A stretch of 64,000 nt of DNA from Maribacter aestuarii (GTDB taxonomy: Bacteria; Bacteroidota; Bacteroidia; Flavobacteriales; Flavobacteriaceae), in assembly GCF_027474845.2 (NCBI RefSeq), contig NZ_CP107031.2:2184501-2248500 (forward strand), written 5' to 3'. The translations under genes and the position numbers were made by a program. Position 1 is the stretch's first letter. Every line of letters begins with the position of its first letter. Of the stretch, positions 23,117-28,777 are shown one piece after another. The notes beneath the pieces are model-generated. The model was not told the origin of the DNA, searched no databases, and was given only the letters and a program-made list of their open reading frames with translations.

Positions 23117-23304
23117 CTCCCCCTATCGTACAGAAAAAATCCAACCGTATAATTTTGGTCTTCATTAGAGAGTAGCTTTAAAAGTATAAAATTGCCTATT
23201 TCATCTATTTTTTATCCCATTTCATCCATTTTTTTGATTCAAACCTATATGTAGTACGGCTTTTGTACTCTTGGATATATGTATAACGATTAAATGATGA
23301 GATT

Positions 23305-23475
23305 ATGAAAACAGCACTACTTATTAAAGAGATTTATCTGGAAGGTTTTAGAAACCTTGGAAATTATATTCTAAAGAATTATTTGAAAGTTTTTGCCTGG
23401 TTCTGTTTTGGACTGATTGCCATAGGGCTATATGCCTTGCTTTTTAGAATGTATACCGGTTTTGCTTTTGATTAG
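23305..23475 (+). CDS. 56-residue single-span membrane protein (small paralogue A)
   Basis: ATG at 23305 to TAG at 23473-23475. The N-terminal half is charged and conserved (MKTALLIKEIYLEGF, GNYILKNYLKVF), followed by one transmembrane helix of about 18 residues and a short TGFAFD tail. It aligns without gaps to the minus-strand gene at 28601-28777, with 32 of 56 residues identical by my count, which proves both are real coding sequences. A strong terminator follows. Function unknown. The pair brackets the dinB-dnaE2 genes. Confidence 0.82.
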   Translation: MKTALLIKEIYLEGFRNLGNYILKNYLKVFAWFCFGLIAIGLYALLFRMYTGFAFD

Positions 23476-23490
23476 CATAATCTAATTAAG

Positions 23491-23523
23491 AAAAGCCCTT
23501 GACTATAGGTTAAGGGCTTTTTT
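23491..23523 (+). terminator. Intrinsic terminator after small paralogue A
   Basis: AAAAGCCCTT and AAGGGCTTTT form a 10-base stem extended by GAC/GTT, followed by TTTTTG. It lies 15 bases past the stop codon. Confidence 0.8.
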
Positions 23524-23580
23524 GTTGGAAGGATTTTGTCGGATTCTTTTTGCTATTTTAGTGAGCTTTGATGCTTTTAG

Positions 23581-23830
23581 ATGAAAACGACCACCATTAT
23601 ACTCATTTCCATAGCGCTTTACATGTTGTTGTTAATTATGCTAGGGTTATATGCCAATAAAAGAAAGACTTCTCACTCACTTAAAGACTTTTATTTGGCT
23701 GGTGGAAATCTAGGTCCGTTTTGAAATGAATCTGATTTTGGGACTACCACTATGGTTGGTCAGTTGCATTTTGGTTGTTTTTCTAATAGCGTGTTTTACC
23801 ATATTTATTATTAATAGATATTGGAAATAA
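23581..23830 (+). pseudogene. Relic of a sodium:solute symporter locus
   Basis: From ATG 23581 a 47-residue frame matches the beginning of an SSS-family symporter (a first membrane span followed by KDFYLAGGNLGPF) and then stops at 23722-23724. At once a second frame (23726-23830) gives a 34-residue hydrophobic piece (LGLPLWLVSCIL) that looks like the end of a YhdT/DUF997- or DUF3311-type small membrane protein. Such proteins often accompany SSS transporters. The rest of the symporter, about 450 residues, is missing. The simplest reading is a large internal deletion leaving two ends. Confidence 0.62.
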
Positions 23831-23853
23831 TCCAAATATTAGGAAATAATCCA
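23822..23853 (+). promoter_or_regulatory. Tandem operator-like boxes upstream of dinB
   Basis: Two near-identical 13-base boxes, TGGAAATAATCCA (23822-23834) and AGGAAATAATCCA (23841-23853), 19 bases apart centre to centre. Each has TGGA/TCCA half-sites around AATAA. They end 33 bases before the dinB ATG, where a repressor of a damage-inducible operon would bind. A weak -7-like TATTTTAA follows at 23869. Regulation by a LexA-like factor is inferred; no regulator gene is adjacent. Confidence 0.5.
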
Positions 23854-23886
23854 TAAATTAGCTGTCCTTATTTTAATAGGATAGCA

Positions 23887-25101
23887 ATGCAAAAGACCGT
23901 ACTACATCTTGATCTCGATACTTTTTTCGTATCTGTAGAGCGTCGACTCGATAGTCGCTTAGAAAACAAGCCCATACTTGTTGGCGGACTTAGTGACCGC
24001 GGGGTCGTGGCAGCCTGCAGCTATGAGACCCGTGGGTATGGTATCCACTCAGGTATGCCTATGAAAATGGCAAAGGAATTATGTCCCGAAGCTATTCTCA
24101 TTAAAGGCAACGCGGGTACTTATAGCTATCATTCCGATTTGGTTACAGAGATTATAAAAGAGCACGTGCCACTTTTTGAAAAATCAAGTATCGATGAATT
24201 CTATGCAGATTTAACCGGTATGGATCGCTTTTTTGGTTCCTACAAATATGCTTCTGAAATACGACAAAAAATCATAAAAGAGACCGGGCTCCCTATTTCC
24301 TTTGGTCTTTCTATAAACAAAGTGGTTTCGAAAGTGGCTACAGGCCAGGCTAAACCTAATAACCAATTAAAAATCGACTACGGACTTGAAAAAACTTTTT
24401 TGGCTCCACTTTCCATCAAAAAAATACCCATGGTGGGCGATAAGACCTATCAGATTCTTCGGAATTTAGGTCTTAGGAAAGTACGGACCGTTCAAGAAAT
24501 GCCTATGGACGTTATGCAACGCGTACTCGGCAAAAACGGAAAAGTAATCTGGAAACGCGCCAATGGAATCGATCATACACCTGTGCTTCCATTTTGTGAA
24601 CGAAAATCCATTTCTACCGAACGTACTTTTGATAAGGATACCATTGATGTAGTAAAGCTGCGTGGTATTTTAATCGCCATGACCGAGAATTTGGCCTATC
24701 AATTACGACGGGGCGAAAAATTAACGGCCTGTATCACCGTGAAAATTAGATATTCCGATTTTAACACCTATTCCAAGCAATTGCGTATTCCCTATACCAG
24801 TGCCGATCATATTTTGATTCCAAAGATTTTAGATTTATTCAGAATATTGTACAACCGCAGATTATTGGTTCGGTTGATAGGAATTCGATTCAGTCATTTG
24901 GTCAGTGGAAATTATCAAATCAACCTATTCGAAGATACTGAGGAGGCTTTGAGTCTTTATCAGGCTATGGACCATATTCGAAACCGTTATGGGGATAAAA
25001 GTGTGGTGCGCGCCTCAGCCATGGGCAAGAATACGATAGGTAGAATGCACAACCCGTTCAACGGTCAGCCGCCCATAGTGCTGGCGCATAGAAAACAGTA
25101 A
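23887..25101 (+). CDS. dinB: DNA polymerase IV (Y-family translesion polymerase)
   Basis: A 404-residue Y-family polymerase that copies past damaged bases with low fidelity. Catalytic acids are visible in HLDLDTFF (Asp 9, near the N-terminus) and SSIDEFYAD (Asp 103, Glu 104). Also present are the finger segment YETRGYGIHSGMP, the helix-hairpin-helix region IPMVGDKTYQILRNLG and a little-finger domain to about residue 350. The tail lacks an obvious beta-clamp peptide. It precedes dnaE2 by about 80 bases on the same strand, an arrangement like the mutagenesis cassettes of other phyla but without imuA. Expected to be damage-induced. Confidence 0.95.
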   Translation: MQKTVLHLDLDTFFVSVERRLDSRLENKPILVGGLSDRGVVAACSYETRGYGIHSGMPMKMAKELCPEAILIKGNAGTYSYHSDLVTEIIKEHVPLFEKSSIDEFYADLTGMDRFFGSYKYASEIRQKIIKETGLPISFGLSINKVVSKVATGQAKPNNQLKIDYGLEKTFLAPLSIKKIPMVGDKTYQILRNLGLRKVRTVQEMPMDVMQRVLGKNGKVIWKRANGIDHTPVLPFCERKSISTERTFDKDTIDVVKLRGILIAMTENLAYQLRRGEKLTACITVKIRYSDFNTYSKQLRIPYTSADHILIPKILDLFRILYNRRLLVRLIGIRFSHLVSGNYQINLFEDTEEALSLYQAMDHIRNRYGDKSVVRASAMGKNTIGRMHNPFNGQPPIVLAHRKQ

Positions 25102-25182
25102 AAAATGGGTTGGCCGTCGTCAGTTGACAGTTCATGGTTCTAATGTTCGACCGACAACCAACAACAAGAAATCATTAACCGT
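25102..25182 (+). repeat. Short intergenic repeat-like spacer between dinB and dnaE2
   Basis: The spacer contains CGTCAGTTGACAGTT and CCGACAACCAACAACAA, the GTTGACAGTT/ACAACCAACAAC style of filler that I recall from flavobacterial intergenic sequence. No gene is seen. It leaves dnaE2 with a TTG start rather than ATG. Confidence 0.3.
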
Positions 25183-28182
25183 TTGTATTTAAACTGCCAT
25201 ACATATTACAGTCTTCGCTTCGGAACCTTTTCTGAAGAAGAACTCTTGCAGTTAGCCCAAAAGAACCATGTAACACAATTGGTGCTAACTGATATCAATA
25301 ATACATCGGCAGGACTAAATTTTGTAAGATTGGCTCCTGAATATAACGTAAAGCCTATTTTAGGTATCGATTTTCGAAACGGTGTAGATCAGTGTTACAT
25401 TGGTATTGCAAAGAACAACGACGGCTATTTGGAGTTGAATAATTTTCTTTCGGAACATCTTCACGAGGAAAAGGAATTTCCTTCTACCGCTCCACATTTT
25501 ACCAACACCTATACCATATATCCCTTTGAAAAAATACTGGAGAACGATCAATACAGGTTTGCAGCGCATGAATTTGTTGGGATATCCATCGCTAATCTTC
25601 GGAAACTTCCCTTTTCAAAAGTATTGAAATTGAAAGAAAAGCTGGTCGTGCAGCAACCGGTCACCTTTAGGAACAAAACTGATTTTAATGCCCATAGGTT
25701 ATTACGTGCCATTGACAATAATATACTGTTAAGTAAATTAGAGAGGACCGAAGAGGCCAATGAAGACGAAAAAATGATTCCTGTTGAGAATCTGGTCGCC
25801 GCTTTTTCAGAATACCCGTTTATTCTAGAAAATACGGAGCAGTTGTTGAACTCCTGTTCCATTAATTTTGACTTTTCAAAAAATAGGGAACCACAAAACC
25901 TAAAAACATATTTAGGGAGCCGGGAAGAGGATGAGGTGCTACTGGAAAAATTATGTCAGGAGGGATTGTCCTATCGTTATCCAGATGGGGGCGAACACAT
26001 AGAAGAAAGGCTATATAAAGAATTGGGATTGATAAAGGAACAAGGTTTCGTCTCTTACTTTTTAATCAATTGGGATATTGTTTCCGAGGCTAGCAGAAGA
26101 GGTTTTTTTTATGTAGGTAGGGGTAGTGGTGCCAATAGTATTGTGGCCTATTTACTTCGTATTACTGATGTGGACCCCATAGATTTGGACCTTTATTTTG
26201 AGCGCTTTATGAATTTATATCGTGCTAATCCACCGGATTTTGATATTGATTTTTCACATCGGGACAGGCCTGCCATGACCCAATATATTTTTAAACGCTT
26301 TGAGCATGTTGCCCTTCTGGGAAGCTATGTAACGTTTAAAGACCGAGGTGTAATTCGTGAATTGGGCAAAGTATTTGGGCTTCCCAAAAGTGAAATTGAT
26401 TTACTTTCCGAGGGTAGGTATGATAGGTTAACACTGGATGGAATTTCTAGATTGGTAGTCAAATATGGCCAGTTAATTAAAGGAATGCCCAATTATCTGA
26501 GTATACACGCCGGAGGCATTTTAATCTGCGATAAACCCTTACATTGGTTTTCGGCTACGAGCCTACCTCCTAAAGGCTTTCCCACTACACAATATGATAT
26601 GGTCATCGCAGAAGATGTGGGGCTTTATAAGTTTGATATTCTAGGACAGCGGGGGTTGTCAAAAATTAAGGAATCGTTGGAAATCATCGCTTATAACCGA
26701 ACCGATGAGACCGATAGTTTTGATATTCATGATATTAAAAAATTTATTAAGGATCCAGTGATTAACAACCTCATTAAAACGGCACAGTGCATGGGTTGTT
26801 TTTATGTAGAATCGCCTGCCATGCGGATGCTGCTTAAAAAGTTGGAAGTCGATAATTACTTGGGTTTAGTGGCGGCAAGTTCCATCATTCGTCCCGGAGT
26901 AGCAAAAAGTGGCATGATGCGGGAATATATTCTTCGTCATCGTAATCCAGGTAGAACCGAAGAAAAGGCCCATCCCGTAATGTTGAAAATCATGCCCGAG
27001 ACCTACGGCGTAATGGTATATCAGGAAGATGTTATAAAGGTGGCCAATATTTTCGCCGGACTTGATTTGGGCGAGGCCGATGTCTTACGCCGTGGTATGA
27101 GCGGAAAATTTCGTTCGCGTGAAGAATTTCAAAAAGTAAAAGAAAAGTTCATTGCTAATTGCCGAAAAAGGGGAGAGGATGACAAAATTATTTTTGAAGT
27201 GTGGGAGCAGATTGCAAGCTTTGCCGGTTACGCTTTTGCAAAAGGGCATTCGGCCAGCTACGCGGTGGAAAGCTATCAAACACTTTTTTTACGCGCCTAT
27301 TATCCGTTGGAGTATATGGTGGCCGTACTCAATAACGGAGGGGGATTCTACAGTTCCGAGTTTTATGTACACGAAGCCAGAATGTTGGGTGCAACTATTC
27401 AGTCACCCTGTATTAATAGAAGTTCAAACAAAAATGTAATCTATGGAACGGCTATTTTTCTTGGATTTGGATATCTCCGTGAATTGGAAGACCGTGTAGC
27501 GGAACGTATTTTAAAAGAGCGGTCACAGAACGGAAATTTCATATCCTTAGAAGACTTTTTAGACCGTGTTCTTATAACCGTAGATCAAATAAGTATCTTG
27601 ATTAGAATCGATGCCTTTAGGTTTACGGGAGTCAATAAACATGAATTGCTTTGGAAGGCACATCTTTTCCTCAATAAAAATATAAAAATAGACCACCCAA
27701 AACTGTTCAAGGCCGAACACCAAGATTTTAAGATTCCGCAATTGCATACCTCGGATCTAGAAATGGCCTTTACACAGTTGGAGCTCTTGGGTTTTTGCTT
27801 GTGCAGCCCTTTTGAATTGTTGGAGGAGCCGCCAAAAAATACGAACGGGAGTAAAGATTTGGAGCGTTACTTGAACCATCGTATCGATATTTACGGGTAC
27901 TTGGTTACCGTGAAAAATACCAGAACCCATAATGGGAAAAACATGCATTTTGCAACAATGATAGACCAGCAGGGAAAAGTTTTTGACACGGTACTTTTTC
28001 CACCGGTCGCCGCCAAATACAGTTTTAGAGGTAGGGGTATTTACAGATTTTACGGAAAGGTCGTTAGTGAATTCGGTTTTTTAAGTATCGAGGTCATTAA
28101 AATGCGGAAACAGGATTATATTCAAGATCCCAGATATTCGGATATGAAGACCAGTACTAAGGTGTTCAACAAAATTAAGTGA
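25183..28182 (+). CDS. dnaE2: DNA polymerase III alpha subunit, DnaE2/error-prone type
   Basis: A 999-residue C-family polymerase. The N-terminal PHP domain opens with YLNCHTYYSLRFG, where the usual His-x-His is reduced to Cys-His. The active site is PPDFDIDFSH (Asp 352, 354, 356), preceded by GRGSGANSIVAYLL and a FERFMNLYRANP block. An OB-fold (about residues 890-980) ends the protein; the tau-binding tail of replicative DnaE is not apparent. The TTG at 25183 is the only start giving the family N-terminus (M-Y-L-N-C-H); an in-frame stop lies upstream at 25141. It partners with dinB for damage-induced mutagenesis. The replicative dnaE is at 43-48 kb. Confidence 0.92.
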   Translation: MYLNCHTYYSLRFGTFSEEELLQLAQKNHVTQLVLTDINNTSAGLNFVRLAPEYNVKPILGIDFRNGVDQCYIGIAKNNDGYLELNNFLSEHLHEEKEFPSTAPHFTNTYTIYPFEKILENDQYRFAAHEFVGISIANLRKLPFSKVLKLKEKLVVQQPVTFRNKTDFNAHRLLRAIDNNILLSKLERTEEANEDEKMIPVENLVAAFSEYPFILENTEQLLNSCSINFDFSKNREPQNLKTYLGSREEDEVLLEKLCQEGLSYRYPDGGEHIEERLYKELGLIKEQGFVSYFLINWDIVSEASRRGFFYVGRGSGANSIVAYLLRITDVDPIDLDLYFERFMNLYRANPPDFDIDFSHRDRPAMTQYIFKRFEHVALLGSYVTFKDRGVIRELGKVFGLPKSEIDLLSEGRYDRLTLDGISRLVVKYGQLIKGMPNYLSIHAGGILICDKPLHWFSATSLPPKGFPTTQYDMVIAEDVGLYKFDILGQRGLSKIKESLEIIAYNRTDETDSFDIHDIKKFIKDPVINNLIKTAQCMGCFYVESPAMRMLLKKLEVDNYLGLVAASSIIRPGVAKSGMMREYILRHRNPGRTEEKAHPVMLKIMPETYGVMVYQEDVIKVANIFAGLDLGEADVLRRGMSGKFRSREEFQKVKEKFIANCRKRGEDDKIIFEVWEQIASFAGYAFAKGHSASYAVESYQTLFLRAYYPLEYMVAVLNNGGGFYSSEFYVHEARMLGATIQSPCINRSSNKNVIYGTAIFLGFGYLRELEDRVAERILKERSQNGNFISLEDFLDRVLITVDQISILIRIDAFRFTGVNKHELLWKAHLFLNKNIKIDHPKLFKAEHQDFKIPQLHTSDLEMAFTQLELLGFCLCSPFELLEEPPKNTNGSKDLERYLNHRIDIYGYLVTVKNTRTHNGKNMHFATMIDQQGKVFDTVLFPPVAAKYSFRGRGIYRFYGKVVSEFGFLSIEVIKMRKQDYIQDPRYSDMKTSTKVFNKIK

Positions 28183-28210
28183 AATCAAACAAAGCAAAAG
28201 TTTCTAGCAC

Positions 28211-28348
28211 TTAGAAATAATTAAGTACATGGCCCAAAATCCAATAGAGCAGGATAAATACGAAGATACTGCCTATACATCCGCATTTGCCACCACCTAT
28301 TTTTCTGGCCCCGTACCAGGCACCGAGAATTTGAATCAGTTTTTTCAT
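28211..28348 (-). CDS. 45-residue Gly/Cys-rich membrane protein
   Basis: ATG at 28346-28348, TAA at 28211-28213. The protein starts MKKLIQILGAWYGARKIGGGK, continues CGCIGS, and ends in one transmembrane helix (IFVFILLYWILGHVL). The Gly-rich and Cys-Gly-Cys motif before the helix and the Lys-rich N-terminus look designed rather than random. It lies 28 bases beyond the convergent dnaE2 stop. Function unknown; the motif could bind metal, but this is a guess. Confidence 0.66.
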   Translation of the reverse strand: MKKLIQILGAWYGARKIGGGKCGCIGSIFVFILLYWILGHVLNYF

Positions 28349-28471
28349 GATATGAAATATAAGATTTTATGGTGCGAATATCTAACCGAAGCTTAGCAAA
28401 TATTGATTGAATTTATCACTTATGCCAAGTACACAATCCTTGCTCTGAATAGAACATACAGCAATATTGAC

Positions 28472-28597
28472 TTAAAAACCGACAACGGTCCCCGTCCAAG
28501 AAGCCGATGTCATTTTTGTAATCAATAAAAGAACAACAGCAACGAATAAACAGCAAGTAATAGCAAGCACTTTCTCATAGTTTAGTTTTTTATACAT
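28472..28597 (-). CDS. 41-residue single-span membrane protein
   Basis: ATG at 28595-28597, TAA at 28472-28474. MYKKLNYEKVLAITCCLF is followed by VAVVLLLIT and the tail KMTSASWTGTVVGF: one hydrophobic helix, probably anchored at the N-terminus. Its ATG lies three bases beyond the stop of the upstream gene, so the two form a tight operon. No homology could be recognised by eye. Confidence 0.5.
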   Translation of the reverse strand: MYKKLNYEKVLAITCCLFVAVVLLLITKMTSASWTGTVVGF

Positions 28598-28600
28598 GGT

Positions 28601-28777
28601 TTAAATATTTGAAAAAACAAATCCAGTGGATACCCTATATACAAAGGCATATAATACCACCGCGTACATAGCGAGTGCGAACCACAAAAAGGCTTTAAAA
28701 TAATTCTTGACGATATAATTGCCTAAATCTTTGAATCCTTGAACATAAATTTCCTTTATCAGTATAACTGTTTTCAT
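28601..28777 (-). CDS. 58-residue single-span membrane protein (small paralogue B)
   Basis: ATG at 28775-28777, TAA at 28601-28603. It opens MKTVILIKEIYVQGF, continues GNYIVKNYFKAFLWF into one transmembrane helix, and ends RVSTGFVFSNI. It is about 57 percent identical (32 of 56) to paralogue A at 23305-23475. The shared pattern is MKT-x2-LIKEIY-x2-GF-x2-LGNYI-x-KNY-x-K-x-F-x-WF. The conserved cytoplasmic part suggests a partner protein. It leads a tiny operon with the 41-residue gene and has a 12-base palindrome 19 bases upstream. Confidence 0.82.
   Translation of the reverse strand: MKTVILIKEIYVQGFKDLGNYIVKNYFKAFLWFALAMYAVVLYAFVYRVSTGFVFSNI

Follow-up and report, generated by a model that had tools for sequence, protein, structure and literature searches.

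The two short open reading frames that flank the translesion synthesis genes dinB and dnaE2 in the Maribacter aestuarii window (the whole stretch of DNA analysed here, 64,000 nucleotides long) are real genes, and both are members of a known family, DUF6747 (Pfam PF20532). The family is under purifying selection, and its members occupy recurring genomic addresses. One of the two window genes (copy 1) lies upstream of dinB-dnaE2, as such genes do in other genera; DUF6747 is there a neighbour of the SOS cassette and, judged by the operator, not a member of it.

Two DUF6747 genes around dinB and dnaE2

The features of the region, in window positions, are as follows:

23195..23234, plus strand: direct repeat CCTATTTCATCTATTTTTT / CCCATTTCATCCATTTTTT 5' of copy 1, 21 bp apart, 17 of 19 positions identical
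23252..23266, plus strand: putative promoter-like element TAGTACGGCTTTTGT of copy 1, recognised from its conserved columns in an alignment of 25 upstream regions
23305..23475, plus strand: DUF6747 copy 1, a 56-aa protein with a single predicted membrane helix (PF20532, E 1.2e-25); similar genes stand 5' of dinB in other genera
23493..23527, plus strand: intrinsic-terminator-like hairpin and T-run, 3' of copy 1
23581..23724, plus strand: 47-aa fragment in the interval from copy 1 to dinB, similar to sodium/solute symporters at their N-terminus and possibly a remnant (weak TIGR02121 match, 20.9 bits, far below the cut-off)
23823..23852, plus strand: two GGAAATAATCC sites, the LexA-type operator of dinB (GGA-N5-TCC; motif published in PMC8565304)
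23887..25101, plus strand: dinB, DNA polymerase IV (Pfam IMS/IMS_C)
25183..28182, plus strand: dnaE2-like DNA polymerase III alpha subunit gene (Pfam DNA_pol3_alpha and finger domain)
28211..28348, minus strand: conserved small hydrophobic ORF of 45 aa just 3' of dnaE2, not DUF6747
28601..28777, minus strand: DUF6747 copy 2, 58 aa, convergent with dnaE2 (PF20532, E 1.4e-25)

Copies 1 and 2 lie on opposite strands, both oriented toward dinB and dnaE2, and align without gaps at 57% identity (32 of 56 residues identical, 43 of 56 similar; BLASTP E 8e-25), and the pattern MKT-x2-LIKEIY-x2-GF-x2-LGNYI-x-KNY matches each of them exactly; the frames, the level of identity, the shared pattern and the inward orientation claimed in an earlier note on this DNA are thereby confirmed. 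Both match the Pfam family over its full length (positions 1–55 of 55), at 90.1 bits for copy 1 and 90.0 bits for copy 2 with a cut-off of 27, and agree with it in length and conserved residues; no difference was found, and Pfam gives no function. An NCBIfam search returned no match for either copy. The host genome holds four DUF6747 copies above the Pfam cut-off, two in the window and two elsewhere, and with the Pfam match, these two further copies and the purifying selection, the view of the frames as real, conserved small membrane genes holds. The suggestion of a new family does not, as they are already catalogued under PF20532 and the protein database contains 989 relatives at E ≤ 0.001, many of the best 120 being named 'DUF6747 family protein'. 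Novelty is therefore low, the family being already known, and our literature search found no paper naming DUF6747 and no title on the repeat motif or the family; nor did the parts of the literature searched mention the address at dinB, the exclusion from LexA control or the common repeat described below.

DUF6747 occurs in 57 of 299 genomes of the host's bacterial family, with 1–6 copies each, and 242 are without a match; in a sample of the phylum it was found in 5 of 296 genomes, all in the host's family, and in none of 14 control genomes at E ≤ 0.001. Within the genomes sampled it is restricted to one bacterial family, and in the host's own genus it is present in 36 of 36 genomes, mostly with two matches each. 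Nine usable pairs among 21 copy-1-type sequences gave a median dN/dS of 0.09 (0.10 when copy 1 is compared with locus L168), so that the conservation and negative selection for which the earlier note proposed a test are both found. That the frames are short might suggest chance or decaying ORFs, a reading to which we assign a negligible probability: the Pfam match, the occurrence across genomes, the recurring dinB address and the low dN/dS all speak against it, and conservation and selection already refute it.

Among 225 distinct sequences, residues M1 (whose invariance is partly by construction), Y11, F15, Y43, A44, R48 and G52 are invariant; K28, F33, T51, F53 and F55 are conserved at 92–98% (T51, F53 and F55 at 94–98%), and K or R occupies position 8 in 99%. 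Mean column entropy is 0.87 bits for residues 43–55 versus 1.52 bits for residues 2–28 in the same set. The most conserved part is thus the C-terminal tail and not the N-terminal half, which had been described as a conserved cytoplasmic half; the partner binding proposed with it stays plausible, with the conserved face placed in the tail. DUF6747 is probably a single-span membrane protein of about 56 residues, with a basic, partly amphipathic N-terminal stretch that would be cytoplasmic and a short, nearly invariant end, Y-A-x-x-x-R-x-x-T-G-F-x-F, that would be extracytoplasmic: the positive charges ahead of the hydrophobic stretch suggest an N-in topology, while R48, beyond the membrane helix, speaks against applying the positive-inside rule in its simple form. 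An AlphaFold2 model gives a single helix over residues 2–51 (mean pLDDT 86, pTM 0.49), and a PDB sequence search yielded no credible relative (one match, E 0.35).

The 45-aa ORF has matches in 34 of 100 relatives and in 29 of 36 same-genus genomes, the host's included; in two genomes, G075 and G286, it lies about 3.4–3.6 kb beyond dinB on the opposite strand. No DUF6747 gene is among the matches listed near it in the 28 of 28 other same-genus genomes having that gene (coordinates compared by eye; draft contigs could conceal some copies). A 41-aa ORF 3' of copy 2 (28472–28597) was rejected as not conserved, with matches in 2 of 100 genomes, one being the host's and the other having stops. The Rfam scan of the window region gave a single sub-threshold match, at the copy-1 terminator, which we take as chance.

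The dinB address and the LexA-type operator

A scan of named genomes aimed at copy-1-like genes gave 79 loci (from the best 80 of 235 stretches, partly in the same genomes as our unnamed set). The fetched stretch contains dinB in 41 of the 79, always downstream of DUF6747 and on the same strand, a proportion that is not a family-wide rate because of the aim of the scan. The nearest DUF6747 gene is 84 to about 6,800 nt from dinB in these 41 loci, and within 1.2 kb in 30; some Eudoraea-type genomes have three tandem copies at this address. Among the 57 DUF6747 genomes, at least 15 of the 52 having a dinB match show it (coordinates compared by eye). The link to dinB proposed earlier is real at one recurring address. 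Copies unrelated to dinB or dnaE2 were among the outcomes that the earlier note named as refuting its reading, and copies unrelated to dinB are the majority, with 129 of 149 surveyed genes lying elsewhere and 20 at dinB.

The motif GGA-N5-TCC is bound by the SOS regulator of S. agarivorans in mobility shifts and has been assigned to the Flavobacteriaceae (PMC8565304). Between DUF6747 and dinB is situated TGGAAATAATCC...GGAAATAATCC, and a GGA-N5-TCC operator stands in this interval in all 30 short-gap loci (gap up to 1.2 kb), at most about 210 nt from dinB; in 29 of them there are two sites at a distance of 19 bp. The operator in its 10–11-bp form is found in 37 of 41 dinB upstream regions (150 nt) and in 0 of 119 and 1 of 149 DUF6747 upstream regions (300 nt; two partly overlapping sets), and in the window it lies 3' of copy 1 only. 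In terms of the non-canonical LexA regulon of the Bacteroidetes (PMC8565304), its motif stands 5' of the adjoining dinB-dnaE2, and the DUF6747 upstream regions are without it; the operator that defines this regulon does not mark DUF6747 promoters. Because it precedes dinB and is nearly absent at DUF6747, an SOS role is not supported, and with so many genes at other addresses neither is the idea of a damage protein.

In the window and in 11 of the 30 short-gap loci, DUF6747 has a terminator-like hairpin behind it; a simple scan detected none in the other 19, where read-through from DUF6747 into dinB is therefore possible. For the window, we rejected a DUF6747-dinB operon on account of the hairpin and the LexA-type operator in between. 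Searched in the host genome with up to three mismatches, the tandem operator has two sites and no control match, one at dinB and one (L266, G000:C1:2532117-2532146) ahead of what is presumably an SOS-associated peptidase gene. Genes of this kind are in the published Bacteroidetes LexA regulon (PMC8565304). Horizontal transfer of the dinB locus (dinB is 86% identical to that of the same-genus genome G075 and 91% to that of G189) is not supported, since other genes vary to a similar extent.

Genomic addresses and upstream repeats

The 120 regions fetched around DUF6747 copies, with three from the host genome, comprise 149 DUF6747 genes (from 153 matches, four over-long duplicate rows being dropped) in 48 of the 57 positive genomes, those left out being G077, G150, G218, G223, G235, G256, G270, G286 and G288. 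Representative neighbour genes were named by Pfam; gpmI, map, pgk and the address-E neighbours are putative assignments of our own. Address A (41 genes, 40 of 48 genomes) lies among VanY/M48, ankyrin, gpmI and map genes, and its copies are mostly of a distinct 'MGT..HFK..ENCKPE' type that forms a supported clade. Address B (52 genes, 36 of 48 genomes, often as a tandem pair) follows an OmpA-PD40 gene and faces, in convergent orientation, a DUF4837 gene that adjoins an SLT-LysM transglycosylase gene. Address D, defined by dinB within the fetched stretch, holds 20 genes in 15 of 48 genomes, window copy 2 included (locus L111 was assigned to it by hand), and address E holds 9 genes in 8 of 48 genomes, among housekeeping genes; the remaining 27 of 149 are scattered.

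Two loci, L100 and L116, have DUF6747 genes between two response-regulator gene families, with three in a row in L100; in L116 one family is represented by a LytTR regulator and the other by a single-domain receiver. Because a LytTR-type neighbour family adjoins DUF6747 in both, the regulator may be of LytTR type; we rejected LytTR control as established, since this is no more than a lead from neighbouring genes.

The 19-bp direct repeat upstream of copy 1 (21-bp spacing, 17 of 19 identical) is the sole zero-mismatch match to TTTCATC-N14-TTTCATC in the genome; with up to one mismatch there are 18 matches versus 9 for the reversed pattern, and one near G000:C1:928093 was discarded for want of a fitting gene start. 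In the alignment of 25 upstream regions, the position of the first box is conserved in the 24 others and the second box is degenerate, and a TTAGCA-N3-CNTTTGT-like element is conserved. A flavobacterial TAnnTTTG box is given in PMC9723704, the available text of which does not contain 'direct repeat'. Tested as near-identical 9-mers 21 bp apart within 150 nt, such repeats are present in 21% of 52 address-B upstreams and 19% of 83 named-locus upstreams versus 7% of 545 controls, which themselves show a small bump at 21 bp, and in 11% of 56 upstreams from D, E and other addresses, the majority of which fail the test. Address A was dismissed in this respect (5% of 41, not above the control 7% over 150 nt), and its 21-bp pairs at greater distance from the start seem to belong to the end of the coding sequence of the gene before. 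Two 8-mers mark the upstream classes: CTTATAGC in 27 of 41 address-A upstreams versus 0.3 expected, and TCACAACA in 14 of 52 address-B upstreams (350 nt) versus 0.4 expected. At address-A loci (for example L011), a conserved stretch like GATTTAACCCTTATAGCTTTGATT is seen shortly 5' of the start codon of the A-class gene.

Among address-B genes, the C-class copies have TTCACAAC as their repeat box, TCACAACA being the 8-mer that marks it. Across 21 genomes (the host and 20 chosen for carrying C-class copies), TTCACAAC-N13-TTCACAAC with up to two mismatches has 331 matches versus 139 for the reversed pattern (table sums). Thirty fetched loci precede DUF6747 (4), a 35-aa microprotein (5), a 124-aa protein (5), an LRR protein (2) and, in the remaining 14, other or no clear genes; the second box is 82–98 bp from the start codon in 16 of the 30, and up to 111 bp at further sites. 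Of the three host-genome matches with 0–1 mismatch, one stands 5' of the LRR protein, one 5' of the 35-aa microprotein and one 5' of an sRNA-like unit. Seven have two mismatches, two of them inside long open frames, and this set includes the 124-aa gene, an ECF sigma gene, a 71-aa gene, a beta-barrel-like gene (below the Pfam cut-off) and, 68 bp 5' of its start, the OmpA-PD40-family gene adjoining address B; with three mismatches the host genome is at control level (58 versus 59). None of the four host DUF6747 copies has the TTCACAAC version, so the window copies are not established as members of this gene set, with which copy 1 has the spacing and TTTCA in common and nothing else. The microprotein (for example MNSQMNHIAPEEKVQVYRNDFFSGIVLLTKKLFML) lies behind the repeat in L317 (the host genome, G000:C1:1864136 region), L278, L282, L287, L293 and L295; that of L317 has no Pfam match.

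In 11 loci, 17 TTCACAAC sites have no protein gene behind them, and common blocks follow instead that mostly end in a hairpin and T-run. These loci (L267, L274, L280, L284, L285, L290, L296, L299, L305, L312 and L318, the last in the host genome near G000:C1:1901547) carry a candidate sRNA family of about 150–200 nt, which begins with a block resembling GTAATTAAGTGATAGTGTTGACCCCAAATC, continues with one resembling ACCAAATTTTAC...CCTACTTAAC and closes with a terminator-like hairpin, with units in tandem about 280–390 bp apart in several genomes. Because the sites were picked by their 5' pattern, only the conservation further downstream is independent. Rfam gave no match in the 8 of 11 candidate loci scanned, and over 15 loci only two tRNAs, both in L010.

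What the family may do

We hypothesize, with a probability of roughly 0.45, that DUF6747 acts in the membrane as a single-span adaptor, under its own control and ending in an invariant tail. The copies would be separate transcription units with their own promoters, and the paralogs would supply an almost identical product from promoters of different classes. Different signals could in this way deliver one membrane protein to one shared partner, a membrane protein on which a small regulatory adaptor might dock through its helix and tail. Copy 1, without a LexA-type operator of its own, carries a 21-bp direct repeat of the kind that activators bind side by side; AraC-type proteins could use this spacing as well. 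The adaptor fits best because the product is nearly constant, the upstream classes are several and unlike, the genes are small and separate, and the tail is invariant. It is weakened by the failure of most D, E and other upstreams in the repeat test, the degenerate second box in copy-1 orthologs, the possible transcription into dinB at 19 of 30 short-gap loci, and the fact that a long helix is expected from any single-span protein. MgrB is likewise a protein of about 50 residues with one span and a small stand-alone gene, DUF6747 differing in its many paralogs per genome; AcrZ is a further small regulatory membrane protein of about 50 residues, with one span and a stand-alone gene.

The main rival, possible though doubtful, is that DUF6747 serves a fixed envelope machine as a small subunit or as its stabiliser, for peptidoglycan remodelling or for type IX secretion and gliding. 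Of the two commonest addresses, one has VanY, M48 and CHU_C-signal genes in its vicinity and the other OmpA-PD40, SLT-LysM and M23 genes (PorP/SprF in 6 loci), and the two-mismatch TTCACAAC repeat stands at the OmpA-PD40-family gene; yet DUF6747 is often convergent with these neighbours and looks separately transcribed, 242 of 299 family genomes do without it, and the D, E and scattered addresses lack the mark of envelope genes. We consider quite improbable an SOS-linked protein, that is, a membrane division inhibitor or checkpoint peptide co-induced with dinB-dnaE2, for which the same-strand address 5' of dinB, the gaps down to 84 nt and the 19 short-gap loci without a detected terminator could be cited. 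SidA is a small single-span division inhibitor of the DNA-damage response, and SidA, DidA and YneA resemble DUF6747 in size, single span and context, DidA being described as SOS-independent; DUF6747 differs in that it has no LexA-type operator and most surveyed copies are away from dinB. The operator comes after DUF6747 and not before it, the sole other tandem operator of the host genome is at the peptidase-like gene, and in G018 a DUF6747 gene adjoins an ADP-ribosylglycohydrolase gene with dinB about 33 kb off. Still less probable is a hydrophobic peptide like the type I toxins Hok and TisB: DUF6747 is tiny, single-span and multicopy, sometimes with two or three in tandem between longer genes, but its C-terminal tail is strongly constrained at low dN/dS and its addresses recur across genera.

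Extending the adaptor hypothesis, we offer as an unlikely proposal that the paralogs are membrane effectors of an undescribed 21-bp direct-repeat promoter network of Maribacter-type Flavobacteriaceae, which would also drive the 35-aa microprotein, the 124-aa protein, LRR and OmpA-type surface proteins and the tandem sRNA family; through its promoter versions, several regulators could act on a single membrane partner common to the paralogs, and the copy 5' of dinB would tie the network to translesion synthesis by read-through.

The analysis removes a false lead, that of a new SOS membrane protein, and puts in its place a testable frame: an uncharacterised family of which a genome carries 1–6 paralogs, whose tail hardly varies, whose addresses recur and whose upstream motifs differ by class. 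Some of these paralogs have the TTCACAAC repeat in common with a microprotein, with surface genes and with a candidate sRNA family, which provides handles on the regulator and on the function.
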